Assembly (NCBI GenBank): GCA_030374765.1
Contig: JARGXX010000080.1
Location: forward strand, 1,550,001-1,614,000
Length of the DNA stretch: 64,000 nucleotides
Reading direction: 5' to 3'
Origin: Agarophyton chilense
Taxonomy: Eukaryota > Rhodophyta > Florideophyceae > Gracilariales > Gracilariaceae
Shown here: piece by piece, positions 1-53,217 of the stretch
How positions within the stretch are numbered: position 1 is the stretch's first letter
Layout: each line of letters begins with the position of its first letter
Program-made: the position numbers and the translations under genes
The notes under the pieces: model-generated
What the model was told of the DNA's origin: nothing
What the model saw: the letters and a program-made list of their open reading frames with translations, nothing else
The model's database searches: none

Positions 1-2
1 GG

Positions 3-1058: not shown

Positions 1059-1172
1059 TTCTCCTGGAGTTACTTCATACTTCTGTAGTGTTCAGATTCG
1101 ATCAGGCTCTTCTGACACAACCAAACCGACGAGAGCGTCATCAATGGTGTCTGGGACATCCAGTTTAGCACG

Positions 1173-19029: not shown

Positions 19030-22000
19030 AGCAGAAGTTGCGTGGTACGTGATGAGGTGGTTCCAATGTGTCATCTCAAGAGTTATAGCCCTACCACCGG
19101 AAGCAGGGGCAAACACCTGCTGGTGTTTGTTTTTGAACTGCAATGGTTTCGGTTGCTCATACGGACGCTTCAATCTCTAGGTAACTGCCTAATTAAGGTG
19201 CAGAGCCCTGCTCTCGGGCTCATTGGGTTGTCTTAAGGTCTAAAAGTTTTCTTTAGATGTTGCAATTGAACGATTCAGATACCACTTGGTGAATCGGACG
19301 TCGATGTTGCGGATGACGGATTAACGTCTGGGTCCGCAGTCATGCCACCCTTCTTTGGATCTATTGAGGCCTGGTCTATTAATACGGTGTTTTCGAGTCC
19401 ATTCATTCGAACCGTAACAGTGTGCTCCTTCGCTGTGATTATCTCATATAGTCCTATAGACTTCGGGAGTAGCTTCGACTGGATATCAGCATCGAAACGA
19501 ATATCGTCTTTTTCCTTGGATGGTGTCGGTCTCGATCCGCTGAAAGGGTTATCAGTGAAGACATAGTCCCCAATTTTTACCGTAGCAATCTTCTTTACCC
19601 ATTGGTCGTAGTAGGCCTTATACTGCTTCTGGGCTTCTGTCAGTTTGGCATTTGCTTCCTTTAAGGTTGTCCCGAACTTGTCGAGTAAATTCGTCTTGAC
19701 CTGAGCAAAGGTAAGGGTACCTGCTACTAGGTAGTTTTCGGGTCCTCGTTGAAGGACAATCCCATGAGGTGTCCGTGGGAGGACCAGGTCGAAGGCAGTA
19801 GTCTGCGTAGATCGGTGTACCTGAAGCTTATAAGCATAAGTTAGGGGCTCTACATAATCAGGCAATACAGTTTGGAGTTCTTCTACGTAGTGTCGTAGTC
19901 TTGAAACGATGGTTTTGTTGAAGCGTTCCACTTGGCCGTTTGTTTGTAGATGATAGGCCGTAGTGAAGTAATGCTTCAACCCAAGCATGGTACATACAGC
20001 TTCAAAGAACTTAGAATTTATGTTCGAGCGAGTGTCGGTGAGTGGGTACATTGGGGCACCGTATAGGTGTACCCAATTGTTCAGGAAGGATCTTGCACAG
20101 ACCGTCGAAGTGGTGCTCTTCAGTTGTATGGACCTCGCGAGTTTGGAAAACTGAATGCTGATGATCACCGCGAATCGGAAACTCTCTGGGGTTTTTGGAA
20201 GTGAACCCAGGATGTCGATAGCTACAAATTCCAAGGGCCCAGCCGCGGTGAAAAGCGTCAAACACTTCCTGTGCTTTCGTCAAGCACCTCGGGTCTTTAC
20301 AAAAGAAGCCCAGAGAGCCACATAGGTGTAATCATCGTGGGCCATGTGGAGCGAGTCGAAGTGTTCCTTAAGGTATAATATAACCTTGTGGTTCCTGGAC
20401 GAACTGCCATTCTTTGGAAATGCCATAAATATAATACCTTCGGGCGTAAAAACACTGATACCACCTTCTGGAATGCTCCGTTTAGAGTTAGACTACGTAC
20501 TAGGTAACCTTCATGGTCTATATCGAACTACAATCCTTTGATTCTAACTTGGTTGCCCATTGTCCTGCAGTAGGTATCCGTAACTTGCGCTCGAAATAGT
20601 TACTCTCGGGTAGTGGGAGTGTCCTTCGCTTCTTCGATATCTCCTACCATTTCGAATGATTCCTCCCTCCGTCCTTCTTCATCATTCAATAGTCCTAGTT
20701 GTTCTTCCTTACCATAGGATTGTTCCAGCTGAAGCTTGAAGCATGGTATATCATCTTCTACCGGTTTGGAGCCCAGCCAACTGGTATTTAACCGAAACCT
20801 TCCATCCTTGATGTTGTTTTTTATACCAGGGCAGTATGGGACTTCATATTCAAACTCCGAGAATCGGAGTCTCCACCAAGCTAACCGTCCGAAGGCGTCC
20901 TTCAGACCCAAGATCCAACGTCAGGCTTCATGATCCGTTCGTACAGTAAAGCGAGCACCATATAGGTACGGTGGCAGCATCAAAAGGCTCCATACCATGG
21001 CGAGGAATTTCTTTTCCGTGACGGAGTTGTTTTGTTCCGTATGTGTGAGCGCTCGGCTCAAGCAACCAATTTGTGCTTCTGATACACGGTCCTGCCCCTG
21101 CATGAGACAGCAACCAATTTCGTCATACGAGGTATCAGTATCCAACGTGCATGGCTTTCCTGCTTTCGGTATTGCCAGCAAAGGAAGTGAAAGCAGCGCT
21201 GCCTTCAAGAGATGGAAGACGCCCAGTTCGTCGTAGTCTAGATACACAAACCTTTCCGGTTGACCTTTTTGGAGACGTCGGTTTAGAAGGGCTGCTATAT
21301 TCGCAAATCCTTTGAAAAACCTGTGGAAGACGTTGCACAATCCTATGAAGGAGCGTATATCCGTTTGGGTTCACGTGATTTTCGCTTCTTCTACAGCTCT
21401 GAGATTTTATTTGGCTACTCGAAGTGTTCCTGGCCTGATTGTGTGCCATAGGTACTCCACCTTCTGGTCAAAGAATGTACACTTCCTTAACTACAGAGTT
21501 ACTCACACCTTTCTCAGGAGATATGGTACGGTCCGAACGTGTTAGTCGTGCATCTCCACGGTTCTGGAGTAGATAACGACGTCGTCCATGAACACCAGTG
21601 CGGTTGTTGACCTGACTTTCGATAGCAATACGTCAAGAGCCTGTTGAAAGGTTGCTGGCGCATCCTTTAAACCAAAAGGCATCTTCCGGAATCGGTAGAG
21701 CTCAGCGTGACATGTGAACGCCGTTTTATCTCCGCTTTCCTCGGTTATCTCTATTTTACAAATAGCACAGGTGGCATCCAGTGGGGTGAATTTTTTGCGT
21801 CCAATAAGGAATCGATCCATTCATCGATTCTTGGTATCGGATACGACTCTCTTACCGTTACGACATTCAAATTCCGATAGCCGAAACAGAACCGCATTCG
21901 GGTTTCTCTTCGTTTTTTCACAAGCACCACGGGGCTTGCCCATTCCGCATTTACGGGTTCAATTACACCTTTACGGAGTATTCTCTGCATCTCCTGTATT

Positions 22001-23140
22001 TCTACTTCACTGGCTTTTGGACCGGCCCGGTACAGTTGCTGATGAATAGGCTTGGTGCCTGGCGCCAAGTCTATGCGATGCTTGGTTGCTTCTATCGCAT
22101 CCAGCCATCCCGATCACTTGGTTTCGAGCGGCTCCAGTAGCAAGAGTCTTCTTTTTCGGTTTCTTTCACATTTAAGTCCGATATTTACTTCCTCTCTCCA
22201 GTCCTTCAACCTCTCCACTTCCATGGTGGTGTCGGTAATCTCCGGTTTCGGCGTTTTTCTTTACCTTCTGGTTCTCATTCTTACTTGCCTCGCTATCCTT
22301 ATCGTTCACGTCAACATGAGACCATGATGGTTTCATTGTGAAGATGTGACCTGGTGCCGGGAGCGCTAAGCCGATGACGGTGTTTTGGGGAGCTTTACCA
22401 TGAGGTTGATGAAGTTGCTGAGGTATACCTTGAACGGTTTGTTCGTTATATTTTCGACAATCCCATTTTCCATCAAGGTCGTGTGTTTATCCATTAACTT
22501 CGCATGGTTCTGAAGGGGTACCATACCTGGTCGCAAGGATGTGACTTGTACTACAATTTGATGGGAAGGTAGAATGGATACCCTGTAAGCTAGCCAACCC
22601 ATATGGGATATTGTACCTGCTGGTTGGTTTGCAATCTCCCGTTTGGTGTTCTGTTTTTGGGGTCCTCGGCGCTTACCAATAATAGCAATGCGGGGTCCTT
22701 TGTTGAAAAAAAACGTCTGGGATCTGGGGAATACACCCCGGATGCGGTGGCCGATAAACGATGTTTCCAGAGTGCAGTCCATTGAGAGTTGGTTGAACAC
22801 AATGAAGTGGACCCTTACTTTCAGGTTTCTAACCATGACCATAAGGGTCAGCTGACTACGGACTGAACGAGGTGTATTGTTAGCACCAGAGACTGGGTTC
22901 TGCAATGTGCAGGGCTGTATCCTGTCCAATAAAATTGGTAATAGTAGTCTGAAATTCATCAGATTGGGTCCCAATCCTGTATCCAGGACGGAAACATATG
23001 GAACCAAATGGTTAGTAGTAAAGCCGAGAGTGATGCCTACCTCATACTTACTGTGTTTGAGGGAGCATATAGTGGCTGGGTCATCAATAAATTCTTCCTC
23101 TCCAGTGACCAATGGGTAGTCATACATACTTGAATCAGAT
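19030..23140 (-). pseudogene. Element B pol remnant: protease, RT, RNase H, integrase, chromodomain
   Basis: From high to low coordinates: aspartic protease with VLDTGLGPN (23127-22366); reverse transcriptase with ASPVVLVKKR, KTAFTCH, MPFGLKDAPATFQQ and the catalytic FMDDVV (22068-21542); RNase H with LDTDTSYDEIGC and a YGARFTVRTDHEA end (21340-20921); a linker (20911-20600); integrase with FVAIDILG, LTDTRSN and TNGQVERFN, the D, D, E catalytic set (20261-19275); and a decayed chromodomain near 19040-19140 readable as FRW-GYNS-DDTLEPP with two stops. Frames break repeatedly. The catalytic motifs remain readable, but no continuous polyprotein exists. Confidence 0.85.
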
Positions 23141-23399
23141 GGTATTAGATGGCCTTACGAGTGGGCCCGGTTGGGGGTGGCCTTCTCTGCAACCGGATGG
23201 CGTTTTCCGCCTTGTGGACGGACTCAGCTTCCTAAGTTCCGTCCTTGACCAAATTGACATATTGAGATGCCATAGGAAGCGCATTCGCGTTTATCTCAAG
23301 GTGAGCCGCTGCGGGTTGGGGATGGAAGACTTCCCGATGGTTCTGCTGCCGCACCTGTCGGAACATGGCTCGTATCGGGGGAACCACGCTGCTACACTG

Positions 23400-25350
23400 C
23401 GTCGCCAAATGGTGGAGAGATAAAAAACCAGCAAAGATGGGTGAGTGGTGTGGGGTCTCCTAGTTCTATTATGGTTGGTTTTGGCTGGACCTTATTAGGG
23501 AAAGGCATTATCGTTCTGTATACGGGTCGCCCACCAACCTGGATGGCATATGGTACTGAAGGAACCGAGTGGAGTGAAGCGGATACCATTGTTGAAGGAG
23601 TCGAAGGTGGTTGTGATGGGATTTAACCAGGTAATGAAATCGACCAGGTGGAACTGGGAAACAAATGTTACCCGACCTGAGAGATGTCGCTCAGATGAAT
23701 CGCTTGCCCAGGAGGTGTGTGCCCGGCTGATCCATCATCGGTCGTGGAGGCTTCTTCAATGCCGAAGACTGACAGTTTCGGTTTATCCATTATCCCTTTC
23801 GGTGTGGGAGCCACTGTCCCTTTTCCCATTCATAGTGTATCTCCTAGGCCCTGCGCATAAGGCAGCAGTGCGTTGTGATCCACCCTACGGTTTGTACCAC
23901 GGTAATTCCTTACCTGAGACCTTGCTGGTTTATCAATGTTATCAGCGTACATTGAGTTTAACCTTGTGGTAGTAAAAACCCTACCGCACTGGGACGCCGT
24001 CGCCCAGAGCGAGCGTGCGTAATTCAATTCGGTTTGTTTTGCTCGTTGACGATGCGTGAACACCGCAGAGTAGGCCTCCTGAATCACCTCATCGGTTGCA
24101 TAGGTCTCCAAGAAGAAGCTCACCACCCGTAGGTATGTAGTCAGCACTTCCGTCTGTTCATCATCCACTGCCATGGTATTGCCCTTTAAGCGGCTTTGAA
24201 ACATGTCAGCGACCTGATTTTTGACGTAAAACTGAAATAACCACATTGCGGCTCCATCTGAAAACCCATTTTGGTCACAAGCTATCTTGCAACTCTGAAA
24301 AAAGTTGATGATAGCAACGGGGTCATTTCCCGAAAAGTGGGTATCCTCCATCTGGAAACTGAGCTTTCGATGATGCTTATTTATCTTCTGAGGCACCTCT
24401 TTGGTATACTCATAGTTCTTGTTCTCCAACCTATAGGTGTGATTATTGACAGCCTTTGTAAAAAGGTCGTCCAACGGAACGATCACCTGGAGGTCAGGAT
24501 CGCTATCGGAATCTGATGCCGAAGAGTCGTACAGTTTTGTCTAACCCTTGCGCTTGTTTTTCTCTTCCTTACGACGGTAATTCTCCTTGCGTTTCCATGA
24601 ATCTCTTCCGTTGTCATCCGTTGACCCAACAGATTGGGTTTTTGAGCTCGAAGAGTCACGGTCCGACCGGTGCCTCTCTCTCTTCGCCCTTTTGGTTTTC
24701 TTTTTTTTCTTACCACATGGTCGTCGGCTTCACTCTTTATCCAATCTCGACTACCCATCTTTACCACCAGAGTCCCTGCCAATGGGTTTATGCACCGCTC
24801 TACCAACCGGTTTCGGTAATTAATAATACTCTGGGCCCTCAATCCCCGGAGACTCTGTCCCTCTCCGAATTCGGTTGTGCGGCTTCTCACTAGTTTTCGA
24901 AGTTGGGATGTTAGTTTGGAGATCGAAAATACCATGAGGTATTTGAAAAGAGCTTGGGCCTTCACCTTGACGGTGTTTGCTTTCACAGCTATTTTGGGTT
25001 CGCAAACCCCATGTGTCTGTAGAAATAGCGCTACCAATTAGTCGATTTGTTTTATTACCTCGTTCTTGAGGTCGTTGATGATAATTACCGGCACACGTTC
25101 CATCACTTCCTATTACGCCCGATCCACCACCAAAGAGGTATTTGAATCGATGTCTAGATGGGGACCAGGAGGCTCACCCTTTTGTCCTACCACATTTGTA
25201 TTTCGGGCTTCTGTCGAGGAACCTTCTGTCTCTCGTCCTGCGGCATCGACCTGAGTGATTCTCGGCTTCCGCAGAAGTTCCTCCGGTTTGTCCAAAATTG
25301 GATTTTCAAGTCCTACTTGTTGGGAGAAGACCACTAACTGGGGCACTAGG
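23400..25350 (-). pseudogene. Element B gag remnant
   Basis: The frames at 25037-24483 (basic, Arg/Lys-rich) and 24486-23830 together give a Gag-like protein. The second contains KLSFQMEDTHFSGNDPVAI, which matches RMQLSLRNQSFTGDDPILV in the Gag of element C, and an SYAT/ETYAT helix followed by QRAKQTELNYARSL matching the C capsid. The CCHC knuckle seen in C was not found here, probably because of decay. Upstream of it is the primer-binding site, downstream the protease. Confidence 0.65.
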
Positions 25351-25530: not shown

Positions 25531-25985
25531 ATTGGTATAAAGAAAGACGGTAGCGGTAGTGTAAAACGTGTTGATTCGATAGAGCGCGCAACGAGCTCGA
25601 CCTAGGACGCGGAGGTTGAAGTTACTCGTAAGGTGGGGCAGCAACAGCCACTGACGGGTGCAGTAAAAATGGAGGTTGTACTGAAAAACGTTGAGAGACG
25701 GCGATACACAATGCCGGCGGGTTCGCAAAACAGTAAAGGCACTATACTTGTTTTTATGGTCGAATGTAGAAACCAAAGGACGTAAAATTAGTCGAGTTGG
25801 TGCTTAACTTTACAATATTGATTGGTGTGGAAATGCTTGTTAAAGATATATATCTCATCGATCACCCGACTTACGGTGGCGCTCCTCGCCGCATGGCCAC
25901 GGGGAGGTGCACTTGAGGTGTGCCTTCTTGTGTATTTAATCCTATCTATCTAATACTAAATTAGCGAAAATCTATACTGATCGGT
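25531..25985 (-). repeat. Element B 5' LTR, first segment
   Basis: This aligns with 7621-8075. The LTR is cut at 25985 by insertion of element C and resumes at 34772. The host 5-mer tcggt at the junction is repeated as tcagt at 34772-34776. Confidence 0.85.
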
Positions 25986-26848
25986 TGAAGAGCAACGCCC
26001 TCCAGGGAGGTTTTTGGGGACTTAAGTTTTTTCCGGAGCCTCCGGCGTGCAACCTCGTTATGAGTAGAAGTAATCCGTTTTCACGGCGATGGCCGGAACG
26101 CCGGTGATGCACCCGCGGGACCGGGTGCCATACACGTGGCCGCAGCGCCCGCGCGACACGTGGCCGCCAGATTGGCCCCTTTGTTAGACGGACATTTAGC
26201 TATTTAGGATAGACTTTATTTATTCTATTCTACGGTGACTACAGTACTTAAGCCGCCGGCCTCGCGGCCGCCGGTCCAGTAAAGTCTCCCCAACAAGGGT
26301 GATCTTCGTCTTCCAGATCTTGGCTCTGGGTCGAAGCGCCTGCGCGGATATACAACTCCTTACGGAGGGATTTTCCGTGGTGCACGGCTTCCCAACCCCC
26401 TTGGACGTTCAAGCAGCCTTCGTGTGTTGGGTATCTATTCTCACTTTCGTGGTTCCCCCCGTGTATACGGTTTGCTACACCCGGCAGTGCCGGCTATTCC
26501 CGAGTCCCCTCTTGCGACTCGTGGTCAACCTCGCCCTCTTGCCTCCGTTCCCATTTTCCTTCACTTTTCCTCCCCTTCATTGGGCAATTCCCGCTCATGC
26601 GGCTCGCACTGACACCTGTCGTGCTCGCCACTCTTGTGGGTTTTGCCTCCTCAGAGGATACGCAAGCACTGCTTCGGCGGGTATTCTCGGCTTCTTTCAG
26701 CCTCCCTGCGCCCGTCGCGACGGTTCGGCTCCGGCTTACACCCGGCATTGCGCGCCGATCCCTGGGAGGGCTCTACCGCGCCGGTTACCTCGTGAGAGGA
26801 AGATCCGGACGTCTTCGTAGGTTTTCCCCTTGGGGGCATTGTCCTACA
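25986..26848 (+). repeat. Element C 5' LTR
   Basis: Runs from TG at 25986 to CA at 26848 and is nearly identical to 33908-34771. It holds two CACGTG motifs 24 bp apart (26133-26138, 26157-26162) in the unit CACGTGGCCGC, and a sense-strand open frame of 173 codons (26299-26820) that is also open in the other three LTRs of this family. Confidence 0.9.
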
Positions 26849-26850
26849 AA

Positions 26851-26868
26851 TTGGTCTCCCGACTTAGA
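26851..26868 (+). other. Element C primer-binding site
   Basis: TGGTCTCCCGACTTAGAA begins three to four nt after the LTR end. The implied tRNA 3' end is GTCGGGAGACCA. The tRNA species was not identified. Confidence 0.7.
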
Positions 26869-26971
26869 AGTCAAGACTGCTTGTGTCCTCTCTGAGGTTG
26901 TTTTCCGTTTAACGGGTTTTCTCCGGTCTCACCGGTTTGCTTTCTATTCTTCCGTCGAGACGGTGTGGCCA

Positions 26972-29083
26972 ATGCTAAGGAGACCGCCTAGCATGGAGCG
27001 TCCCGCAACACGCAGCCGTTCCCGCCAAAGCGGTGACGCCAGGGGCACTGATGTTCCACAGGCCCTGGCTCCAACACCAGATTCCCGGGAGATACCGGTC
27101 ACCGGCACTGAAGACCCGCAGCCCGATTCCGGGTTAACGACCGTCGCAACGGTGGTTTCTCCGCCTCCGCGGTTGGTCGACCAATTGCGGATTGTACGCT
27201 TGGAAGAGCAGCTCCGCTCCCTGCGGGCTGCTCACAATACCCTCTCGAGGGAGTTCACCTCTTTACGAGGAAGCCTCGCTAACCCCCCTCCAAGTGAGTT
27301 AGCCGAGGATATCCGCGTATTGCGGTCGGACGTCAATACACTACTCGAATGTTTTGGCGCTCCGTCTTCCTTCGCAGAAGGTATGGAGAATCGCTTCGAG
27401 CGTCTCCGAAGCCGACTTGAGACGGTCGAGAGGACGCTAACCTCGCCCGCGAACGCGGCTAGACCGGTTGTCTCTCATCGAGAGACCCAGTCGCAGAACC
27501 GGAAGAGCCGGAAGAACCGGGACTCTAACCGTAAGCACGGACACCCGTCCGACTCATCATCTGAGTCGGACGGTAAACCGAGTGACTCGGAGAGTTCCGA
27601 TTCGGCTGTGAGCGATGACCCACAGGATCGTTATGGGCGCTCTTCCCGCTCAAAGCGGTCCTCTGCCACCTACGGGGCCATCCGGCCGCGCCCCAAGGGT
27701 CGGCGACATCCGGGCCTCAAACCCTTGAAGCCCACCAACCCTCTGTACAGGACACTCCTGTCCTACCGGTATTACTGGCTAGAAGATTGCTCTTTAGGTC
27801 GGACACCGCGTGACACGGGTAAAGTGAAAGACTGCATCAAGCGGATGCAGCTTTCACTTCGTAACCAGTCGTTTACTGGGGATGATCCAATTCTGGTCTT
27901 GGATTTCCTACACCGCTTTGTAGCGGAAGCCGATATACTCGGAATGAACGAAGGACAAGCCTACGTGGCGCTACCCTACTTTCTACGGGGTGTCGCTGAA
28001 GATCAGTGTTTGTCGGTTCGGGGCTCGTCGCGAGCCTCCGAAGGAGGTGTGACCTGCTGGCCCGAGGCCGTGCAGTACCTCCTGCGTTCCTACGCAACCA
28101 ACTCCGCGATACAAGCGGCGATACTCGCTTTGAGAGACACTCGACAACGCTCCGGCGAGCTCGAGACCGATTACTCGGTACGCCTGAATAAGGCTTTCCA
28201 CCGTTGTGGTAATGTATACCCCGCTGGGGAACGCTGTACGATGTTCATTGATGGCTTGGATCCACCCATCAAGACTCTTGTCCCCCGTTACAGAGAACAA
28301 GAGCCGAAGGTGACCTACCTTGAACTCGTACAGTTTCCCCGCGCAGAGGGAGATGCACTACGTGCACGCAATCCGGGAACCCGGTCGAAGGCCGCTAAGG
28401 CATTGCTGCTTGAGTCGGACTCTTCTTCACCGTCATTTGCGACGGATGGCATCCCCAAACAGGGTTATGACAATATGAATGTCATCCATCACGATGGTTT
28501 ATCTATTCCGACAACGGAATTACCGTCTACGACGGATGGCTCGGTTGACTCAACCGCAAGGGACACGGAGAACGGGCAGGTCTTTTATCTTAATGACCGC
28601 CGCACTCCGGCCCCCCGTATGCCGTACTCGAACGGAATGACACGAAGTCAGCGCCCTGGATGGGTTGGAAACCGGGAACCCGGAAGATACACCGATGCTC
28701 GGAATGCCGTACCGCGAAACGCGGGAGTGACGTTGGAGTGCCAATTGTGCTACGAGCGCGGGCACACCTCCCCGCAATGCCTTTTATCGCTACGCGATAT
28801 GGCGCGAGTGGTGGATAATTACGAAGCCCTCTCCCCGCAGGAGAAGGGCTCCGTGCCACTCACGTCATATCTCCGCGCGAAGACGGACTTCCCCAACGCA
28901 TTGGCTCACACTCCGAATTCTCGGTACAAACCGGCTCAGCCGGCACGCGCCACACCAGCGCCAAACCACGCTGGTGGATGTCAACCCGCCCCTGCGGTAG
29001 CTACCGTGCAACGGAATCATGCACTCGTTGCCGACGAAGTCGGGCCTTCGCCCGACCAGGACCCTGTACAGGGAAAAGGATAG
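26972..29083 (+). CDS. Gag polyprotein of element C
   Basis: 703 aa from an ATG 123 nt after the LTR; a second ATG 21 nt further on is an alternative, and the frame is also open upstream into the LTR. Residues 60-160 include a coiled-coil-like stretch (LEEQLRSLRAAHNTL). Residues 185-235 are Arg/Ser-rich and acidic. The capsid-like region (about 265-480) contains FTGDDPILVLDFLHRFV and YLLRSYATNSAIQ. A CCHC knuckle (CQLCYERGHTSPQC) sits at about 590-603. Gag would package element RNA and form particles. It ends at TAG 29081-29083 just after a -1 frameshift heptamer. The sister copy in D is frameshifted. Confidence 0.9.
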   Translation: MLRRPPSMERPATRSRSRQSGDARGTDVPQALAPTPDSREIPVTGTEDPQPDSGLTTVATVVSPPPRLVDQLRIVRLEEQLRSLRAAHNTLSREFTSLRGSLANPPPSELAEDIRVLRSDVNTLLECFGAPSSFAEGMENRFERLRSRLETVERTLTSPANAARPVVSHRETQSQNRKSRKNRDSNRKHGHPSDSSSESDGKPSDSESSDSAVSDDPQDRYGRSSRSKRSSATYGAIRPRPKGRRHPGLKPLKPTNPLYRTLLSYRYYWLEDCSLGRTPRDTGKVKDCIKRMQLSLRNQSFTGDDPILVLDFLHRFVAEADILGMNEGQAYVALPYFLRGVAEDQCLSVRGSSRASEGGVTCWPEAVQYLLRSYATNSAIQAAILALRDTRQRSGELETDYSVRLNKAFHRCGNVYPAGERCTMFIDGLDPPIKTLVPRYREQEPKVTYLELVQFPRAEGDALRARNPGTRSKAAKALLLESDSSSPSFATDGIPKQGYDNMNVIHHDGLSIPTTELPSTTDGSVDSTARDTENGQVFYLNDRRTPAPRMPYSNGMTRSQRPGWVGNREPGRYTDARNAVPRNAGVTLECQLCYERGHTSPQCLLSLRDMARVVDNYEALSPQEKGSVPLTSYLRAKTDFPNALAHTPNSRYKPAQPARATPAPNHAGGCQPAPAVATVQRNHALVADEVGPSPDQDPVQGKG

Positions 29084-31752
29084 AGGGAGTCTCCCCTTCG
29101 GGAGAGGCGTCCTCAGAGTTGAGGCTGACGACGCCCGAGGCGCCGATGCCTCGCTCCCCGGTGAAAATCCTGACAAGGAAGGACACTGCAGACGCGGACT
29201 CTAAACACCTCGGTGTTTTGCGTCGACCGTGGATACGGATTAGAAATAACCGGATCCCGGATAGAGTCTTGGTAATGGCCAAGCGTAACTACAAGGTTTA
29301 CGCTGACCTTGGTCTGCACACGCAGTTTATGGTGAGATATCTTACTGTCCTGGATACAGGTGCTGGGCCGAACTTTATTGTGGAATCGGTTTTACCCCCG
29401 CCATTGCGGTCACTCATCCGTTCTGAAATGGTACCCGACGTCTCAGACGCCAATAACAACCCGTTGAAAACGGTTGGTGTGATCGACCCGGTCGTCAGGC
29501 TAGGGCGGATGGTGGTTAAACTAACTTTTATTGTGTGCCGCTCGCTGGCCGCGCCAGTTATACTGGGATGTGACTACTGCGACAGGTTTGTCGACGCCAT
29601 CTGCCCACGCCTTAAGCAGGTGGATCTTGAGGACGGATCGACCGTCCCCATTGTTCGTCAACCGCTAAAGCGGGCATCGAAGAAACACGTTCCTCTTCCT
29701 GCTGCACAGGAGTTCCCCGCCGCTTTTCGCGAGTCTACAAAGCTTCGTGTCGACGAGTCGATTTGCAATCCGCCAAAGTCCCACTCATGGGTGCGAGTCA
29801 GTTCTCGTCAGCACGGTACTCGAATCGTTCGACCGATACCATCACTGTCGAACAGGCATCAACTCGCTTTCGCGGATGGAATCGTTCACATTGAGCCCGA
29901 CAAGTCGTTTTGTGTATGTGTTTCCAACTCTGGAGAGGAACACCAGTATCTGGTTAGGAACCAAGTCATTGGAAGAGTTGCTCCTCACCCCATGTCAATC
30001 TTTACCCTTCAAGGGGATCGTACCGGTTCAACCGGAATGGGTCACTCTGAGGAGGGGGATAATCTCGTCGGAGGTCCCCAGTCTACGCTGAACTTATCCA
30101 CACTGCTGTGTGTGTCGCCACCAGCAGTACTGGTTAAGTTATCCAATGGTTCTTGGATTGTTGTCATCGACAACCGTCGGTTCCGCACGACTGACGTCGG
30201 AAAGATACCACCTGAGTTGGTGAATTTCAAAGCCCAGCCATTGCTGGATGGGCTACCGAATTGTTCGGATCATGAGAGTTGCTGGAACTCGTGGCTTTCA
30301 GTAATGCCTTCCGCTGTTCAGCGTTCGATGGCCTGCATACGCCCAAGGCGCAGAGGAGGGCCATTTAACAGAACTCTGGATGCTTCAGCCCCTCGCCACG
30401 AGGATGGTTCTCAGAATCCCTCGCATATTGCGGAAGTTTCCGTTTCTACGGTAGGGCTAATCTATCCCATCCAGATGGTTGCTTTACACGCCAATAAGCG
30501 ATTCCCGCTCTACAACCCACCTGTGGGACTCTCTGATATACCGATTCAATCGGACGCTGGCCTGAATGGCCTTTCTTCTCTCACGCCACTGCGCGGTGTC
30601 TATCCCCGCCAGTTGGGCGTTTCTACCACTCTCTATGCCGCTCCGTCTAAGGAGGGGGAGGGGACCAGCTCAATCGCGGAAGCATCGCCGTCGCTACGGA
30701 AGTTTAACCGGACACCCCGGGCAAGGCCCCCGAGCGGGCAACCGGCATCGTCGCCGGACGCCAGTCCGCTCCCGCGGGATGCGGCAGTCAACCCGACCGC
30801 CACGCAACCCCGCAAGGGGAACCAAGGCGCTCGAAGACCCGAAGCCGGGAAGCGAGACCCTACGGACGCTCCGCATCGCGTGGAAGCAACTGAGGGCTCC
30901 CCGCACATTCGCGGTCGCACACCGAGCGTTTCGGTCGATACCGGTACTCCGGCGGGCGCTGCGCAAGCAGGTCTAGCGAGCCACTCCGTTGAGAACGGTA
31001 CGAACCCCATGGGGGAAAAGGGGCGCGACGACAAGTCGAAAACCGCCTCCCTTGCCGAACAATCGGAGCCAACCGTCCGCGACGAACCGACCACCCGTCC
31101 TCAAGGTCACGTGACCCGGGCGGGAGATCGAACCAATGGGCACCCGGCATCCCGGTCATTGGCTGACAGCCACCCCTCGGAGGCGGATCGCCGGGACGGT
31201 GAACCACTCACCGCCCACGGCGCACTGCACGGCGGAAACTGCCCACCAATGGGAACGCCGCATGCCGCAAATCAAGCGGAGGCCTCCGGCAAACCCTCAC
31301 CAAGACGGAAGGACCCCCGCAAACTCGCGGTAAGAGCGGACTTCAGGGAAGCCCCTACCGCCCAGCGGAAACATAACCCGGCCGCGCCGGCAACTTCCGC
31401 GAAGCGGTACGGCAGTCCTGGCAACCTGGCAACAACCGCAGAGCGGAATGACAAACCGGGTGATCCGGAACAGGCGACGACGAGCCCAGCACCACGCGGC
31501 GCTGAGGCTCGGTTCACCACCACCCGGCAAGGCCGGCAAGTTTACGTGCAGGAGTACGTCCTCGACCGAATCGTCGGACATAGCTACGATGAGCACGGGG
31601 TGCTCCAGTACCGGACCCGCTGGTACGGATACGGGCCGGAGTGGGACACCCCGGAGCCCATCGAGCACCTCCCGCGCTCCGGGGTAATGCGATACCACCG
31701 CCTTGCGGGGACCGCACTCCCAGCCACGCTGGTAAACGCCCAAGAGGGATAA
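28978..31752 (+). CDS. Element C second frame: protease - unknown region - chromodomain (no RT/RH/IN)
   Basis: The open frame overlaps the end of gag in the -1 register; translation should enter at about 29074 by frameshifting. The protease has DTG at frame residues 126-128 (TVLDTGAGPNFI). Up to about 29710 it is nearly identical to D. From there to about 30890 the sequence diverges abruptly: first an alignable but only moderately similar linker (SSRQHGTRIV, NQVIGRVAPHP), then about 270 codons of unknown type where reverse transcriptase, RNase H and integrase should be. A Pro/Arg/Ser-rich linker and a chromodomain (YVLDRIVGH, TRWYGYGPEWDTPEP; last 70 residues) follow, again near-identical to D. 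No YxDD or integrase triad is present. It is open throughout despite missing enzymes. Confidence 0.85.
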   Translation: MSTRPCGSYRATESCTRCRRSRAFARPGPCTGKRIEGVSPSGEASSELRLTTPEAPMPRSPVKILTRKDTADADSKHLGVLRRPWIRIRNNRIPDRVLVMAKRNYKVYADLGLHTQFMVRYLTVLDTGAGPNFIVESVLPPPLRSLIRSEMVPDVSDANNNPLKTVGVIDPVVRLGRMVVKLTFIVCRSLAAPVILGCDYCDRFVDAICPRLKQVDLEDGSTVPIVRQPLKRASKKHVPLPAAQEFPAAFRESTKLRVDESICNPPKSHSWVRVSSRQHGTRIVRPIPSLSNRHQLAFADGIVHIEPDKSFCVCVSNSGEEHQYLVRNQVIGRVAPHPMSIFTLQGDRTGSTGMGHSEEGDNLVGGPQSTLNLSTLLCVSPPAVLVKLSNGSWIVVIDNRRFRTTDVGKIPPELVNFKAQPLLDGLPNCSDHESCWNSWLSVMPSAVQRSMACIRPRRRGGPFNRTLDASAPRHEDGSQNPSHIAEVSVSTVGLIYPIQMVALHANKRFPLYNPPVGLSDIPIQSDAGLNGLSSLTPLRGVYPRQLGVSTTLYAAPSKEGEGTSSIAEASPSLRKFNRTPRARPPSGQPASSPDASPLPRDAAVNPTATQPRKGNQGARRPEAGKRDPTDAPHRVEATEGSPHIRGRTPSVSVDTGTPAGAAQAGLASHSVENGTNPMGEKGRDDKSKTASLAEQSEPTVRDEPTTRPQGHVTRAGDRTNGHPASRSLADSHPSEADRRDGEPLTAHGALHGGNCPPMGTPHAANQAEASGKPSPRRKDPRKLAVRADFREAPTAQRKHNPAAPATSAKRYGSPGNLATTAERNDKPGDPEQATTSPAPRGAEARFTTTRQGRQVYVQEYVLDRIVGHSYDEHGVLQYRTRWYGYGPEWDTPEPIEHLPRSGVMRYHRLAGTALPATLVNAQEG
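29071..29105 (+). promoter_or_regulatory. Programmed -1 frameshift site, gag to pol
   Basis: The heptamer G GGA AAA (29071-29077) is in the correct phase of the gag frame (CAG GGA AAA GGA TAG). Slipping back one base yields GKRIEG, exactly the pol frame. Twelve nt downstream a perfect 6-bp stem, TCTCCC/GGGAGA with loop CTTC, spans 29090-29105. Heptamer and hairpin are retained in element D. This is the expected way to make a Gag-Pol fusion at low ratio; a pseudoknot was not modelled. Confidence 0.75.
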
Positions 31753-32085: not shown

Positions 32086-33861
32086 TCATTCCTCCGCACG
32101 AGGTGGACCCCCGCCCAGGCGGTTGGCTAAGGCATCCCGCATGGCGGCCACATCACCCGAGATCTCGGAAGGGCGAAGCCCCACCTCCCGAAGGAAGCGC
32201 GCGATGACCTCGCCCCGCTCCGCGCCAGCGGCAGTTGCAGGCGGGCCCGCCACCAATGGAGTCGGATAGGAATCCGTTCGCACGGCATCAGCAGCCCCGG
32301 ATGGAGCCGCACCACCGTATTCAACGGACTCCTCACCGGCCTCGCCGGACTCGTCATCCTCCATCGGAGCGTAACCCGGATCCTCCGGTTCGTTGTCGAC
32401 CATCGGGTCACCATCGGCATAGTCGCGGTAATAGTCGCTCGAGTCGACATACCCTCGCGGGTGGTCGGCCGGGACTTCACGCGGCGCATGCCGGTTGGCT
32501 TCCGCTTCCTCGCGGCTGATCTCGTGGTACTCCCAGGGGTCGAAGTAGATGAAATCCCCCGCTAGCGCGGTATTCCTCCTGAGTCCGGGGCCAGACCCGC
32601 GACGCGGTTGAATGCGTTGGGAGTTCTCCAGCGGGACCTCATCCCACTGGACCCCCTCCACAAAGCCGAGGAGGCCCAGCGTCTCTTCTTCGTTCGCCTC
32701 GCCCCCGAGGGGGATGCGCATGTCCAAACGGCGGATCCCAGCCCGCACACGCGGTGGCACGTACCACAATCGGTATTGGTCGTACGCCTCAGCGAGGATA
32801 AAAGCCGCAGTGCGGACGGCCCATTCGCTTACCACGACGGACCACCACCCCGACTGGGGATCGTTCAAGAACGACGACCCTACATAGGTGAAGACTGGGG
32901 GCAGCTCAATGAAGCAACCCCAGCACGCCTCCAAGGAGGACCACCAGTCTAGGAGACTGACGTACCGACCACGTCGGTGAGCAGGCGCGATGCGCTCAAT
33001 CTCCGTGTCCTGGTAGGGTACGAAATACCCGATCCGGGCCCGCCAACGTCGCTCATCGCGGATGAGGTTCTGAAGGAAGTTTGAGCGCGACTGCCGCGGT
33101 TGGTAGCGGAACTCTGCCCGAAGAATCGGTCGTACCCAGCAAAGGGCTTCTTGCCGAGCGATCGGTGTGCCCCTCCAAGCGAGGGTTTCCAATCCGTTAA
33201 GACGGTCGCAGTACGACATCTCCCCGCGAGTGCGGTAAAGGTGGACGTCGAATTCGACCTCTGGCGGTATCGGGAACTCGAAAGGCGCCCGATGGTGCCT
33301 GAGATAAGCGATCCGCACAAGCGCGGCCTGAGCCTCCGCAGAGGATTCACCGCGTCGGCGGAGTATGTGTTGTACCGGGATGGCGATACGATTACGCCAA
33401 TCCCAGGACATTGTCACCACGCCGGGCAGGTCGCCCGAGAGCATCTCCGAATTATCGGTGTAGGATTGGATCCAATCCTCGTCGCGGACAGCCAATGGGT
33501 GAAACCAAGGCGCATACCGCAACATCGCGGAAGCCTGCCGAGTTCTCGGATTTGCACCCACAAGGGCGTCGTAGGTCGGCCACTGCTGTGGGTCCGCCTG
33601 TCCGCGAAAGCGGGCGCCAATACGGCGGTCTTCGTACGCGAGTTTGGTAACATCCCCAGGGTGGGGCGCGGACCGGAAGCCGGTGGAACCGCCAAGGGCG
33701 GGAGTCGCGGATGTGTTATGACGGTCGGGGTTGGACATGGTGCGTGTTGGTGTGCTGTGGTTGGAATCGGATGCGGAGAGCGTGCGTGGGGTCCTTGGTG
33801 AAGATGTGTTGCTTTCCGGAGACCCGGTGTCGGACGCGCTCTGATCATGACGAGCTGCCAT
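32086..33861 (-). CDS. Antisense retrotransposon protein (aORF) of element C, intact 591 aa
   Basis: The ATG at 33861 lies 46 bp inside the 3' LTR; the frame is open to a stop at 32086, converging with pol 333 bp away. Residues 1-75 are Ser/Thr/Pro/Asn-rich and probably disordered. Residues about 80-400 look folded and aromatic-rich (YAPWFHPLAV, APFEFPIPPEVEF, SRSNFLQNLI, ELPPVFTYVGSSF, WWSVVVSEWAVRTAAFILAEAYDQYRLWY, GDFIYFDPWEYHEI). The tail is acidic, ending in FLREVGLRPSEISGD. No signal peptide, zinc finger or known catalytic motif is seen. Relatives are in elements A, B and D. Expression would need a promoter reading out of the 3' LTR on the opposite strand. Function unknown; plant gypsy elements and retroviruses such as HTLV-1 offer precedents for antisense genes, not homologues. 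Confidence 0.85.
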   Translation of the reverse strand: MAARHDQSASDTGSPESNTSSPRTPRTLSASDSNHSTPTRTMSNPDRHNTSATPALGGSTGFRSAPHPGDVTKLAYEDRRIGARFRGQADPQQWPTYDALVGANPRTRQASAMLRYAPWFHPLAVRDEDWIQSYTDNSEMLSGDLPGVVTMSWDWRNRIAIPVQHILRRRGESSAEAQAALVRIAYLRHHRAPFEFPIPPEVEFDVHLYRTRGEMSYCDRLNGLETLAWRGTPIARQEALCWVRPILRAEFRYQPRQSRSNFLQNLIRDERRWRARIGYFVPYQDTEIERIAPAHRRGRYVSLLDWWSSLEACWGCFIELPPVFTYVGSSFLNDPQSGWWSVVVSEWAVRTAAFILAEAYDQYRLWYVPPRVRAGIRRLDMRIPLGGEANEEETLGLLGFVEGVQWDEVPLENSQRIQPRRGSGPGLRRNTALAGDFIYFDPWEYHEISREEAEANRHAPREVPADHPRGYVDSSDYYRDYADGDPMVDNEPEDPGYAPMEDDESGEAGEESVEYGGAAPSGAADAVRTDSYPTPLVAGPPATAAGAERGEVIARFLREVGLRPSEISGDVAAMRDALANRLGGGPPRAEE

Positions 33862-33907: not shown

Positions 33908-34771
33908 TGAAGAGCAACGCCCTCCAGGGAGGTTTTTGGGGACTTCAGTTTTTTCCGGAGCCTCCGGCGTGCAACCTCGTTATGAATAGGAGTAATCCGT
34001 TTTCACGGCAATGGCCGGAAAGCCGGTGATGCACCGGCGGGACCGGGTGCCATACACGTGGCCGCAGCGCCCGCACGACACGTGGCCGCCAGATTGGCCC
34101 CTTTGTTAGACGGACATTTAGCTATTTAGGATAGACTTTATTTATTCTATTCTACGGTGACTACAGTACTTAAGCCGCCGGCCTCGCGGCCGCCGGTCCA
34201 GTAAAGTCTCCCCAACAAGGGTGATCTTGGTCTTCCAGATCTTGGCTCTGGGTCGAACCGCCTGCGCGGATATACAACTCCTTACGGAGGGATTTCCCGT
34301 GGTGCACGGCTTCCCAACCCCCTTGGACGTTCAAGCAGCCTTCGTGTGTTGGGTATCTATTCCCACTTTCGTGGTTCCGCCCGTGTATACGGTTTGCTAC
34401 ACCCGGCAGTGCCGGCTATTCCCGAGTCCCCTCTTGCGACTCGTGGTCAACCTCGCCCTCTTGCCTCCGTTCCCATTTTTCTTCCCTTTTCCTCCCCTTC
34501 ATTGGGCAATTCCCGCTCATGCGGCTCGCACTGACACCTGTCGTGCTCGCCAATCTCGTGGGTTTTGCCTCCTCAGGGGATACGCAAGCACCGCTTCGGC
34601 AGATATTCTCGGCTCCTTTCAGCCTCCCTGCGCCCGTCGCGACGGTTTGACTCCGGCTTACACCCGGCATTGCGCGCCGATCCCTGGGAGGGCTCTACCG
34701 CGCCGGTTACCTCGTGAGAGGAAGATCCGGACGTCTTTGTAGGTTTTCCCTCTTCGGGGCATTGTCCTACA
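33908..34771 (+). repeat. Element C 3' LTR
   Basis: Runs from TG at 33908 to CA at 34771 (864 bp) and is nearly identical to the 5' LTR, which argues for recent insertion. The 173-codon frame is open at 34221-34742. The overlapping gag-frame extension seen in the 5' LTR is closed here by a TGA near 34648. Confidence 0.9.
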
Positions 34772-43079: not shown

Positions 43080-44039
43080 GCCAAAACAAAGAAACACATT
43101 TTTTTCATTCAATACTTTGTCATTTCACCCTTTTTCTCTACCACTTGAATACAGCGTTCCTGTATAGAGCTGTAAAGTGGTTTAATAAACTCTTCGCTCA
43201 AATTATTCCAACATTCAATCACACATTTCAAAAGCGTTCCAACATCTTGGAATTGGCGCCGATTGGCTTAAGCGCGGCGTGCTAAAACCCCCCTAATGTT
43301 TTCCGTAATGTTCGAGTCCGGGGACTTGCCGGGCCCTGTAAAACATTAACGTTAATTTAAGCCAACCACTTTGTAGTATACGCTAAACAGTGCATAAAAG
43401 CTCTGTCTTGCTGAAAAATAAAACTTTTTCCAATTGTTTCGGCCGTAAATGGTATTAATTCTTTCTGCAACACCTCGCAGTACTTCGTAGAGACTTTACC
43501 GACGCAAGCGACCAGAATACTTAAAACCATAGTAAGAATAGCCAACCTATAACATCACACTATCCCATTTATTTTGTCCCTTAGAAATTTTAAGCTCTTT
43601 ATTCGTTTCATCATGCCAATAATGAGCAACTCTATCGTGTTTCCCAAATTCATATTTCTTATTATAAAAAAAGGGTTTCTTCGATTTTATCAGACGAAAA
43701 GTCATTTTCTCTCGAGCCCATGTAAACATTTTCTTTTTATGTATTTTAGTCATCATTAATATTTGTTTCATCATTTTATAGATTAAACTTGGATCATCAT
43801 GTAACACTTGTTTTATGCGTTTGACCAAAACCAAAAGATCATTACCGAGTTCTCTCGAATAGCTAGATGAGTTTGATGCAGAGCGATAAAAAAGGGCTCT
43901 CTTAGCCAACAAACCCATTTTTTTGGTTGTTAGAGCTTTTATAACTTTTGTTGTACATTTCAGGATCTTTGAGGATGTTTTAACCTACAGCGCGAGAAAT
44001 GCTAATTTTTTCAGCAATATTTCTTTAAGAAAAGCAATA
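43080..44039 (-). pseudogene. Tc1/mariner-like transposase relic
   Basis: From 44039 downwards: an HTH-like segment (IAEKISISRAVG then NILKDPEM); a catalytic-domain piece at 43918-43547 with FTWAREKMTF and YYWHDE-like HYWHDETNKE; WDSVML at the break; then 43545-43357 with FQQDRAFMHCLAYTTKWLA, matching the mariner FQQDNAPxH...WL motif around the second catalytic Asp. Further C-terminal pieces (RRVY, a Trp/Leu-rich end) reach about 43080 with stops. The N-terminus is cut by the left LTR of element D at 44040. It cannot make an active transposase. Confidence 0.7.
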
Positions 44040-44927
44040 TGTAGGACAATGCCTCCAAGGAGGAAAACCTACGAAGACGTCCGGATCTTCTTCTCACGAG
44101 ATAGCCGGCGCGGTAGAGCCCTCCCAAGGATTGGCGCGCAATGCCGGGTGTAAGCCGGAGCCGAACCGTCGCGACGGGCGCAGGGAGGCTGAAAGAAGCC
44201 GAGAATATCCGCCGAAGCGGTACTTGCGTATTCTCTGAGGAGGCAAAACCCAAGAGAGTGGCGAGCACGACTGGTGTCAGTGCGAGCCGCAAGAGCGGGA
44301 ATTGCCCAATGAAGGGGAGGAAAAGGGAAGGAAAATGGGAACGGAGGCAAGAGGGCGAGGTTGACCACGAGTCGCAAGAGGGGACTCGGGAATAGCCGGC
44401 ACTGCCGGGTGTAGCAAATCGTATACACGGGCGGAACCACAAAAGTGGGATTAGATACCCAACACACGAAGGCTGCTTGAACGTCCAAGAAGGTTGGGAA
44501 GCCGTGCACCACGGGAAATCCCTCCGTAAGGAGTTGTATATCCGCGCAGGCGGTTCGACCCAGAGCCAAGACCTGGAAGACCAAGATCACCCTTGTTGGG
44601 GAGACTTTACTGGACCGGCGGCCGCGAGGCCGGCGGCCTAAGTACTGTAGTCACCGTAGAATAGAATAAATAAAGTCTATCCTAAATAGCTAAATGTCCG
44701 TCTAACAAAGGGGCAAATCTGGCGGCCACGTGTCGCGCGGGCGCTGCGGCCACGTTTCGTGCGGGCGCTGCGGCCACGTGTATGGCACCCGGTCCAACCG
44801 GTGCATCACCGGCGTTCCGGCCATCGCCGTGAAAACAGATTACTCCTACTCATAACGAGGTTGCACGCCGGAGGCTCCGGAAAAAACTTAAGTCCCCAGA
44901 AACCTCCCTGGAGGACGTTGCTCTTCA
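44040..44927 (-). repeat. Element D 3' LTR
   Basis: 888 bp, 25 longer than its partner because of one additional 24-bp unit carrying the CACGTG-type motif (44727-44732, 44751-44756 as CACGTT, 44775-44780). The 173-codon LTR frame is open on the minus strand at 44590-44069. Confidence 0.9.
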
Positions 44928-44974: not shown

Positions 44975-46773
44975 ATGGCAGCTCGTCATGATAAGAGCGC
45001 GTCCGACACCGGGTCTCCGGAAACCAACACACCTTCACCAAGGATCCCACGCCAGCTCCTCGCATCAGATTCCAACCACAGCACACCAACACGCACCATG
45101 TCCAACCCCGACCGTCATAACACATCCGCGACTCCCGCCCTTGGCGGTTCCACCGGCTTCCGGTCTGCGCCCCACCCTGGGGATGTTACCACCCGAACTC
45201 CGGCCGTCATCCTCGCGTACGAAGACCGCCGTATTGGCGCCCGCTTTCGCGGACAGGCGGACCCACCGCAGTGGCCGACCTATGACGCCCTTGTGGGTGC
45301 AAATCCGAGAACTTGGCATGGCTCCGCGATGTTGCGGTATGCGCCTTGGTTTCACCCATTGGCTGTCCGCGACGAGGATTGGATCCACTCCTACACCGAT
45401 AATTCGGAGATGCTCCCGGGCGACCTGCCCGGCGTGGTGACCATGTCCTGAGATTGGCGTAATCGTATCGCCATCCCGGTCCACCACATACTCCGCCGAC
45501 GCGGTGAATCCTCTGCGGAGGCTCAGGCCGCGCTTGTGCGGATCGCTTATCTCAGGCACCATCGGGCGCCTTTCCAGTTCCCGATACCGCCAGAGGTCGA
45601 ATTCGACGTCCACCTTTACCGCACTCGCGGGGAAATGTCGTACTGTGACCGTCTTAACGGATTGGAAACCCTCGCTTGGAGGGGCACACCGATCGCTCAG
45701 GAAGAAGCTCTTTGCTGGGTACGACCGATTCTTCGGGCAGAGTTCCGCTACCAACCGCGGCAGTCGCGCTCGAACTTCCTTCAGAACCTCATCCGCGATG
45801 AGCGTCGTTGGCGGGCCCGGACCGGGTATTTCGTACCGTACCAGAACACGGAGATTGAGCGCATCGCGCCTGCTCACCGACGTGGTCGGTACGTCAGTCT
45901 CCCAGACTGGTGGTCCTCCTTGGAGGCGTGCTGGGGTTGTTTCGTTGAGGTGCCCCCAGTCTTCACCTATGTAGGGTCGTCGTTCTTGAACGATCCCCAG
46001 TCGGGGTGGTGTTCCGTCGTGGTAAGCGAATGGGCCGTCCGCACTGCGGCTTTTATCCTCGCTGAGGCGTACGACCAGACCAATACCGATTGTGGTACGT
46101 GCCAACGCGTGTGCGGGCTGCGATCCGCCGTTTGGACATGTGCATCCCCCTCGGGGGCGAGGCGAACGAAGAAGAGACGCTGGGCCTCCTCGGCTTTGTG
46201 GAGGGGGTCCAGTGGGATGAGGTCCCGCTGGAGAACTCCCAACGCATTCAACCGCGTCGCGGGTCTGGCCCCGGACTCAGGAGGAATACCGCGCTAGCGG
46301 GGGATTTCATCTACTTCGACCCCTGGGAGTACCACGAGATCAGCCGCGAGGAAGCGGAAGCCAACCGGCATGCGCCGCGTGAAGTCCCAGGCGACCACCC
46401 GCGAGGGTATGTCGACTCGAGCGACTATTTCCGCGGCTATGCGGATGGTGAACCGATGGTCGACAACAAACCGGAGGATCCGGGTTACGCTCCGATGGAG
46501 GATGACGAGTCCGGCGAGGCCGGTGAGGAGTCCGTTGAATACGGTGGTGCGGCTCCATCCGGGGCTGCTGATGCCATGCGAACGGATTCCTATCCGACTC
46601 CATCGGTGGCGGGCCCGCCTGCAACTGCCGCTGGCGCGGAGCGAGGCGAGGTCATCGCGCGCTTCCTTCGGGAGGTGGGGCTTCGCCCTTCCCAGATCTC
46701 GGGTGATGTGGCCGCCATGCGGGATGCCTTAGCCAACCGCCTGGGCGGGGGTCCACCTCGTGCGGAGGAATGA
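44975..46773 (+). pseudogene. Antisense protein (aORF) of element D, two disabling changes
   Basis: Begins with ATG 48 bp inside the 3' LTR and matches the 591-aa protein of C almost throughout. A Trp codon is changed to TGA at 45449-45451 (after GVVTMS). A 5-bp duplication (gacca) near 46076 shifts the frame just after AEAYDQ, and the frame resumes as LWYVPTRVRAA. A few extra residues (TTRTPAVI) are present near residue 73 relative to C. It reads towards, and ends about 0.33 kb from, the chromodomain frame. The polyadenylation-like hexamer downstream is mutated to AATATA. Confidence 0.85.
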
Positions 46774-47106: not shown

Positions 47107-47962
47107 TTATCCCTCTTGGGCGTTTACCAGCGTGGCTGGGAGTGCGGTCCCCGCAAGGCGGTGGTATCGCATAACCGCAGAGCGCGGAAGGTGCTCGATG
47201 GGCCCCGGGGTGTCCCACTTCGGCCCGTATCCGTACCAGCGGGTCCGGTACTGGAGCACCCCGTGCTCATCGTAGCTATGTCCGACGATTCGGTCGAGGA
47301 CGTACTCCTGCACGTAAACTTGCCTGCCTTGTCGGGTGGTGGTGACCCGAGCCTCAGCGCCGCGTGGTTCTGGGCTCGCCGTCGCCTGTTCCGGGTCACC
47401 CGGTTTGTCATTTCGCTGTGCGGTTGTTGCCGGATGCCCGTGGCTGCCGTCCCGCTTCGCGGAAGTTGCCGGCGCGGCCGGGTTGTGTTTCCGCTGGGCG
47501 GTAGGGGCTTCCCTGAAGTCAGCTCTTACCGCGAGTTTGCGGGGGTCCTTCCGTCTTGGTGACGGTTCGCCGGAGGCCTCCGCTTGATTTGCGGCATGCG
47601 GCGTTCCCATTGGTGGGCAGTTTCCGCCGTGCAGTGCGCCGTGGGCGGTGAGTGGTTCACCGTCCTGGCGATCCGCCTCCGCGGGGTGGCTGTCAGCCAA
47701 TGACCGGGATGCCGGGTGCCCATTGGTCCGATCTCCCGCCCGGGTCACGTGACCTGGAGGACGGGTGGTCGGACCGTCGCGGACGGTTGGCTCCGATTGT
47801 TCGGCAAGGGAGGCGGTTTTCGACTTGTCGTCGCGCCCCTTTTCCCCCATGGGGTTCGTACCGTTCTCAACGGAGTGGCTCGCTAGACCTGCTTGCGCAG
47901 CGCACGCCGGAGTACCGGTATCGACCGAAACGCTCGGTGCGCGACCGCCAATGTGCGGGTTT
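47107..47962 (-). pseudogene. Element D pol 3' part: Pro/Arg-rich linker and chromodomain
   Basis: The minus-strand frame matches the last quarter of the element C pol frame and ends in a chromodomain (YVLDRIVGH, TRWYGYGPKWDTP). It is out of frame with the reverse transcriptase frame because of the deletion junction near 47962, so it would not be translated as part of Pol without another shift. Confidence 0.8.
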
Positions 47963-52334: not shown

Positions 52335-52352
52335 TCTAAGTCGGGAGACCAA
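52335..52352 (-). other. Element D primer-binding site
   Basis: The minus strand reads TGGTCTCCCGACTTAGAA just inside the 5' LTR, identical to element C. Confidence 0.7.
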
Positions 52353-52354
52353 TT

Positions 52355-53217
52355 TGTAGGACAATGCCCCCAAGAGGAAAACCTACGAAGACGTCCGGAT
52401 CTTCCTCTCACGAGGTAGCCGGCGCGGTAGAGCCCTCCCAGGGATCGGCGCGCAATGCCGGGTATAAGCCGGAGCCGAACCGTCGCGACGGGCGCAGGGA
52501 GGCTGAAAGAAGCCGAGGATATCCGCCGAAGCGGTGCTTGCGTATCCTCTGAGGAGGCAAAACCCACGAGAGTGGCGAGCACGACAGGTGTCAGTGCGAG
52601 CCGCAAGAGCGGGAATTGCCCAATGAAGGGGAGGAAAAGGGAAGGAAAATGGGAACGGAGGCAAGAGGGCGAGGTTGACCACGAGTCGCAAGAGGGGACT
52701 CGGGAATAGCCGGCACTGCCGGGTGTAGCAAATCGTATACACGGGCGGAACCACAAAAGTGGGAATAGATACCCAACACACGAAGGCTGCTTGAACGTCC
52801 AAGAAGGTTGGGAAGCCGTGCACCACGGGAAATCCCTCCGTAAGGAGTTGTATATCCGCGCAGGCAGTTCGACCCAGAGCCAAGATCTGGAAGACCAAGA
52901 TCACCCTTGTTGGGGAGACTTTACTGGACCGGCGGCCGCGAGGCCGGCGGCCTAAGTACTGTAGTCACCGTAGAATAGAATAAATAAAGTCTATCCTAAA
53001 TAGCTAAATGTCCGTCTAACAAAGGGGCCAATCTGGCGGCCACGTGTCGCGCGGGCGCTGCGGCCATGTGTATAGCACCCGGTCCCGCCGGTGCATCACC
53101 GGCGTTCCGGCCATCGCCGTGAAAACGGATTACTCCTACTCATAACGAGGTTGCACGCCGGGGGCTCCGGAAAAAACTTAAGTCCCCAAAAACCTCCCTG
53201 GAGGACGTTGCTCTTCA
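52355..53217 (-). repeat. Element D 5' LTR
   Basis: 863 bp, nearly identical to the LTRs of C. One of its two CACGTG boxes reads CATGTG. The 173-codon frame is open on the minus strand at 52904-52383. It abuts the copia fragment at 53218. Confidence 0.9.

Follow-up and report, generated by a model that had tools for sequence, protein, structure and literature searches.

The locus studied here raises the question of whether a long open frame on the strand opposite pol is a gene that Ty3/gypsy elements have kept, and of what its product might do for them. What antisense extra genes do for LTR retrotransposons is not yet understood. The window (the whole stretch of 64,000 nucleotides from Agarophyton chilense that was analysed) holds four Ty3/gypsy elements, A, B, C and D, of which C and D are related copies (Table 1). 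It had been predicted that A, B and C/D each carry an additional gene in the same slot after pol. A 591-aa frame was indeed present in C on the minus strand; it converges on pol and is flanked by the pol/chromodomain end and the 3′ LTR. We consider it almost certain that this frame is a real protein-coding gene, an accessory of Ty3/gypsy elements whose pol ends in a chromodomain-like region, and that it lies antisense, after pol and before the 3′ LTR, and has been associated with pol since before A, B and C split.

Table 1. Positions of the Ty3/gypsy elements and their parts in the window.
Feature	Position	Strand	Remarks
Element A	window's left edge	-	
Antisense gene of A, 3′ part	1..839	+	crosses the window's left edge
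Chromodomain-like end of A pol	1125..1328	-	convergent with the antisense gene
Integrase of A	2206..3438	-	at least 3 in-frame stops
Element B	7625-25981	-	LTR pair 79.9% identical
3′ LTR, element B	7625..8072	-	79.9% identity to 25535-25981
Decayed antisense gene of B	9085..9977	+	9085-9852 aligned to intact B-type relatives; remainder placed by a peptide of the original prediction
gag-pol remains, element B	19281..24492	-	IN/chromo 19281-20872, RT 20603-22110, protease-side region 22411-23079, gag 23545-24492
5′ LTR, element B	25535..25981	-	
Element C	25986-34771	+	LTR pair 97.0% identical
5′ LTR, element C	25986..26848	+	97.0% identity to 3′ LTR across 864 nt
gag-like ORF, element C	26597..29083	+	assigned by position and likeness to other elements
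ORF of C, protease-side region and chromodomain end	28978..31752	+	Pfam Chromo E 0.00033, below cut-off
Antisense accessory gene of C	32086..33861	-	591 aa, intact
3′ LTR, element C	33908..34771	+	
Element D	44035-53217	-	LTR pair 94.6% identical
3′ LTR, element D	44035..44927	-	94.6% identity to 52350-53217
Antisense gene of D	44975..46770	+	one stop and one frameshift
Protease-side and RT ORF, element D	47867..50086	-	RVT_1 E 3e-34
5′ LTR, element D	52350..53217	-	

RT, RNase H and IN were searched for in C and not found. The C copy of the window is a deleted element, which retains gag and the antisense gene together with the protease-side region and chromodomain end. Beyond the window, an element related to C still has recognisable RT, RNase H and IN. 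The gag-like ORF of C had no Pfam match, and its frame as listed opens inside the LTR, so that the true start may differ. With 21.0 bits, the Chromo match at the C-terminus of C pol fell below the cut-off (25.1 bits), and the chromovirus label of the original prediction is therefore tentative. A G-rich, polypurine-like run was read by eye immediately before the 3′ LTR of C. D retains RT, and a search for IN in this element found none. For element A, a search for an LTR pair found none. The copy at L004/L059 showed the same layout as C, lacking RT, RNase H and IN, up to the ends of those loci. The C-like layout suggests a replicating non-autonomous subfamily.

Element B seems to be interrupted, because its antisense remains lie ~9 kb from pol with a tnp2-type transposase frame between them. 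This frame was observed at 16338-17177 of the window (Transposase_21, E 1.4e-14); given its position within B, a DNA transposon may have split the element. A further B-type gypsy element lies to the left of A on the minus strand (L009:1-5990). Elsewhere in the window we observed a beta-propeller protein at 57548-59554 (PF09826, E 4.5e-125) with a diverged inverted copy at 40704-42692 (79-93% alike by piece), and a reverse transcriptase fragment at 53909-55042 that matches RVT_2 (E 2.8e-28), which we take to be the Ty1/copia-type model. The frame at 36161-37189 ends in a long poly-glycine run, looks secreted by eye and had no Pfam match at E 0.01.

At the composition of the C frame, the chance of 591 given codons staying open is ~7e-8. 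The antisense start codon of C is separated from the 3′ LTR by 46 nt, and the antisense and pol stops are 333 nt apart. The whole antisense gene of A encodes 558 aa and is intact (L009:8163-9839, its end being position 839 of the window). Among the matches listed, 49 of 74 C-type copies were free of stops. The window's own B gene is decayed, and the B-type analyses used the last 666 residues of intact loci found elsewhere in the genome (L050-L052), whose stop-to-stop open frames span 842-876 codons.

All seven peptides quoted in the original prediction were located in the window. Those of A lie at 36-68, 252-299 and 375-401 (+), those of B at 9712-9744 and 9930-9977 (+), in two different frames, and those of C at 32875-32907 and 32533-32559 (-). 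GDFIYFDPW recurs in D at 46300-46326 (+). The paired peptides beginning HEEFLRL and HKMYIRL were both present; the one from B (HKMYIRLHGWTDDVRW, 9930-9977) falls outside the B stretch aligned to the family (9085-9852), so that its pairing with the A peptide is putative.

Comparison of the proteins upheld the prediction that three diverged lineages hold homologous genes in the same slot and orientation. A matched C with a tblastn E of 2e-35 and a blastp score of 222 bits (shuffled maximum, 27.3), at ~33% identity along most of the length. B against C gave 44.7 bits (E 7e-9), compared with 27.3 for the best shuffle, and 439 of 1000 shuffles gave any match. B against A alone was marginal (29.6 bits; shuffled maximum, 28.9). 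Profile comparison of A/C-type with B-type proteins gave a probability of 93.3% and an E of 2.6e-7 over 303 colinear columns. The C-B identity of the antisense protein was 22-28%; the corresponding values for IN, over long matches, were 48% for C-A and ~38% for C-B. RT of C- and B-type elements was 62% identical over 215 aa. Judged by identity figures rather than a tree, the divergence order of the antisense protein agrees with that of pol. One piece of IN from the B-type element in L009 departs from this order: over 162 aa it is 52% identical to C, which is closer than A is on average.

The antisense protein has diverged faster than RT between C- and B-type elements, and this difference would fit an arms race, with a product that counteracts host silencing of the element. 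We regard such a role as quite unlikely, because the selection detected (see below) is purifying and the Pfam scan (see below) gave the protein no family match of any kind.

The motif GFRSxPxP was found in 10 of 24 antisense proteins: all four of C-type, all three of B-type from this genome, and the A-type P0003, P0005 and L053. It is absent in the other 14, which include A and some truncated proteins. Different synonymous codons encode the motif, indicating that the protein is what is kept; a DNA-level signal was rejected on the same ground. A scan of eight sense-strand proteins did not turn up GFRSxPxP.

We then considered where relatives of the gene lie. A pol/chromodomain match was present downstream on the opposite strand at 52 of 56 loci (L001-L057 without L009, which repeats L010), all of which were chosen for holding the antisense gene. 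No such match was found at L040, L043, L046 and L049, each ~3.1 kb long. L028, L032 and L037 had same-strand gag/pol matches inside or upstream of the gene besides the convergent ones; these probably come from neighbouring or nested elements. In a coordinate test of B-type matches, 86 of 150 antisense cores paired with 86 of 150 chromodomains convergently within 4 kb among the matches listed, and no pair was found in any non-convergent order. Shifting of positions in 200 sets gave a mean of 1.8 convergent pairs and a maximum of 6. The spacing between core and chromodomain was mostly ~1.35 kb (range, 0.6-2.3 kb) among the matches listed. Because the test covered the best 150 cores and the best 150 chromodomains, the 64 unpaired cores are not to be read as lone genes. 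The convergent slot is thus fixed.

Selection on the protein was estimated within and between types. Mean pairwise omega among eight C copies was 0.52; among three B copies it was 0.47. The omega of A against one A50 copy (A50 being the copies ~50% identical to A) was 0.21 and that of A against C was 0.38, with dS saturated in both comparisons. A dN/dS below 1, expected of a gene under constraint, was therefore seen in C, in B and in A against its relatives. The exception was a mean of 0.93 among five A50 copies, these being every copy without a stop in a listing of 44. Third codon positions carried an excess of changes in C (p 5e-4) and B (p 1e-4), and no such excess was present in the five A50 copies. 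The A50 pattern fits decay after insertion, without supporting constraint.

Changes were also divided by codon position, in tests that ignore relatedness among copies. The A-type alignment comprised 17 of 30 loci (L010-L026), reduced to 16 copies by dropping L012, a near-duplicate of L011. Variants common to at least three copies numbered 22/14/38 by codon position (p 0.002; 16 copies), whereas private variants numbered 164/177/180 (p 0.66; the 15 copies other than A). Such a contrast would arise from a protein maintained through transposition and from drift of each copy once inserted. In C-type copies, single-copy variants were skewed towards third positions (45/35/70, p 0.0015); those shared between copies were too few for a meaningful test (4/5/10, p 0.20). 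The C pattern supports constraint, but not the contrast between private and shared variants.

In three C-type elements in which both genes were scored, the antisense gene had pN/pS values of 0.53, 0.62 and 0.65, and gag had 0.53, 0.74 and 0.78; 3 stops interrupt one of these gag frames. With a fourth C-type element, pN/pS of the antisense gene was 0.36-0.50. Codon constraint from a gene on the sense strand was rejected for C and B, as all three sense frames contained stops in 8 of 8 C and 3 of 3 B copies. One sense frame had a pN/pS of 0.51 in C and 0.58 in B, yet it held 18-23 and 32-37 stops, respectively. The open frame in C and B is thus not explained by a sense gene. Together, the homology across A, B and C and the selection on the protein support the prediction that the antisense gene is old and has been kept.

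These results also bear on whether the functional product could be an antisense RNA, the open frame being incidental. Retroelement antisense transcripts may act via double-stranded RNA, according to the available text of PMC7264820. However, constraint acts at the level of the protein, a long frame is open in three lineages and a motif is kept with different codons. The codon-position results already disfavoured this explanation, and we give it next to no credence.

Copy A required separate consideration, since of the 30 A-type loci retrieved (L010-L039) it alone is free of stops, whereas its integrase has in-frame stops. An intact gene beside a dead pol could be a domesticated host gene. However, the private changes of A numbered 6/8/10 by codon position (p 0.61), with no third-position excess among these 24 changes, a number that gives low power. 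Domestication of A is thus without support, and we consider it very improbable.

The predicted protein is ~550-670 aa long, with a low-complexity N-terminus and a conserved core rich in arginine and aromatic residues. Net charge per 50 residues of the core was +7 to +8 in A, C and P0001 and +4 in P0002, and an acidic stretch of -8 to -14 follows the core. At the C-terminus, A- and C-type proteins bear FLxxxGI/L or a near variant of it. In B-type proteins the C-terminus differs and a charged core of this kind is missing.

At least 11 relatives were found in the protein database (the best 8000 word-sharing candidates being scored per search). P0002-P0005, P0008, P0010 and P0011 are unnamed products of Agarophyton chilense, and P0009 (BWQ96_08668) is from Gracilariopsis chorda; P0001, P0006 and P0007 were further relatives among the matches listed. 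None of the 11 carries a precomputed Pfam domain. Searches with one or two short peptide patterns confirmed 0 of 33 pattern matches in IMG/VR and 0 of 24 in prokaryote contigs. No solved structure was matched by sequence.

In a Pfam scan of 22 members, none matched better than E 0.036, in agreement with the view that no described family contains this protein; E3_binding (0.036) and Ish1 (0.092) were matched by single members. Single-sequence scans for the plant mobile domain, which we take to be PF10536, gave no match at E 0.1 among the 22 members. Ish1 (PF10281), a helix-extended-loop-helix DNA-binding motif, was matched weakly over ~27 C-terminal residues in three of five C-terminal tails (E 0.0034-0.19). 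The three tails are all A-type and belong to related members, and their best score was 18.1 bits, below the curated cut-off of 26.6. The tails of C and P0006 had no Ish1 match.

A hydrophobic segment precedes the YRLW motif, and its peak hydropathy over 19 residues was 2.04 in B, 1.63 in A, 1.28 in P0001, 1.24 in P0002 and 1.17 in C. The values for B and A, and the position of env-like genes between pol and the 3′ LTR given in the available text of PMC7264820, would suit a structural or envelope-like particle protein encoded on the opposite strand. However, in A and C the segment includes E and K/R residues, and its peaks in C, P0001 and P0002 are low. Moreover, env-like aORFs are described in the sense orientation in the same text, whereas the gene here is antisense. 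A particle protein is therefore unlikely.

We tentatively propose a nucleic-acid- or chromatin-binding product with an assisting or regulatory part in the retrotransposition cycle. An antisense promoter would lie in or beside the 3′ LTR, the presumed site in C being the LTR itself, and would drive an mRNA of its own that converges on the genomic RNA. The encoded protein might then bind nucleic acid or chromatin and so assist or regulate retrotransposition. That the gene stays open in copies without RT and IN would agree with a function linked to the RNA, particle or chromatin of the element, but an open frame would also be inherited by copies mobilised in trans. Taken as a whole, an old antisense accessory gene with a nucleic-acid- or chromatin-binding role is the explanation that we favour by a modest degree. 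The gene belongs to a high-copy family in three lineages and two named red-algal species, and shows purifying selection while elements are active and neutral decay later. This succession shows that the protein mattered to the elements.

Additional ORFs that lie antisense between pol and the 3′ LTR are termed aORF-3R, and their function is given as open in the available text of Vicient and Casacuberta (2020; PMC7264820). That text describes a nuclear product and an own promoter for Grande gene23, and an antisense promoter in the 3′ LTR of HTLV. According to the available text of Vicient (2025; PMC11963269), all recently active Retand elements examined have antisense coding regions, TRP28 occurs in 97% of clusters and is suspected of binding DNA, and some of the elements are non-autonomous. 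The surveyed titles and abstract openings reported no antisense genes in red-algal LTR elements. In view of the aORF-3R literature, the kind of gene is known, and the protein family and its red-algal setting appear new within the searches made. The original claim of novelty thus appears to hold for the family, which matched no known one in these searches, whereas antisense extra genes as such were already known from land plants.

The slot is that of the aORF-3R of maize Grande gene23, rice RIRE2, Silene Retand, bean PvRetro13 and fungal Boty: in C, pol ends at 31752, the ORF occupies 32086-33861 and the 3′ LTR begins at 33908. Like those genes, the present one is antisense to gag-pol (52 of 56 loci), is a long ORF in many copies and is under constraint like that on other element proteins (pN/pS 0.53-0.65, compared with 0.53-0.78 for gag). 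The elements differ in that those studied here have a chromodomain-like pol end and come from a red alga, whereas Retand is a non-chromovirus lineage. Chromodomain Gypsy elements that are not chromoviruses exist in Ectocarpus, as described in the available text of PMC12477816.

The likeness to HTLV HBZ lies in an antisense promoter in the 3′ LTR, which is reported for HTLV and would be expected here; in the Pfam scan of 22 members, no family match of the antisense proteins pointed to HBZ. For Grande, a separate promoter and a nuclear product are reported, whereas the promoter proposed here is putative. TRP28 (Transposase_28, PF04195) of Retand is likewise antisense, located between pol and the 3′ LTR and suspected of binding DNA. 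Unlike TRP28, 0 of 22 members matched PF04195 at E 0.1 or better. A search of the whole genome likewise gave no PF04195 match, although it also missed its controls. It is conceivable, if rather doubtful, that an antisense regulator able to bind chromatin or nucleic acid was acquired by red-algal Ty3/gypsy elements, independently of those in land plants and retroviruses, and that it has travelled with pol since before the lineages split. If independent acquisition is true, antisense accessory genes are a recurrent solution in LTR retroelements. Defective elements keep the antisense gene both here and in some Retand clusters. The family supplies conserved residues for testing and extends the aORF-3R class to red algae with a seemingly unrelated protein.
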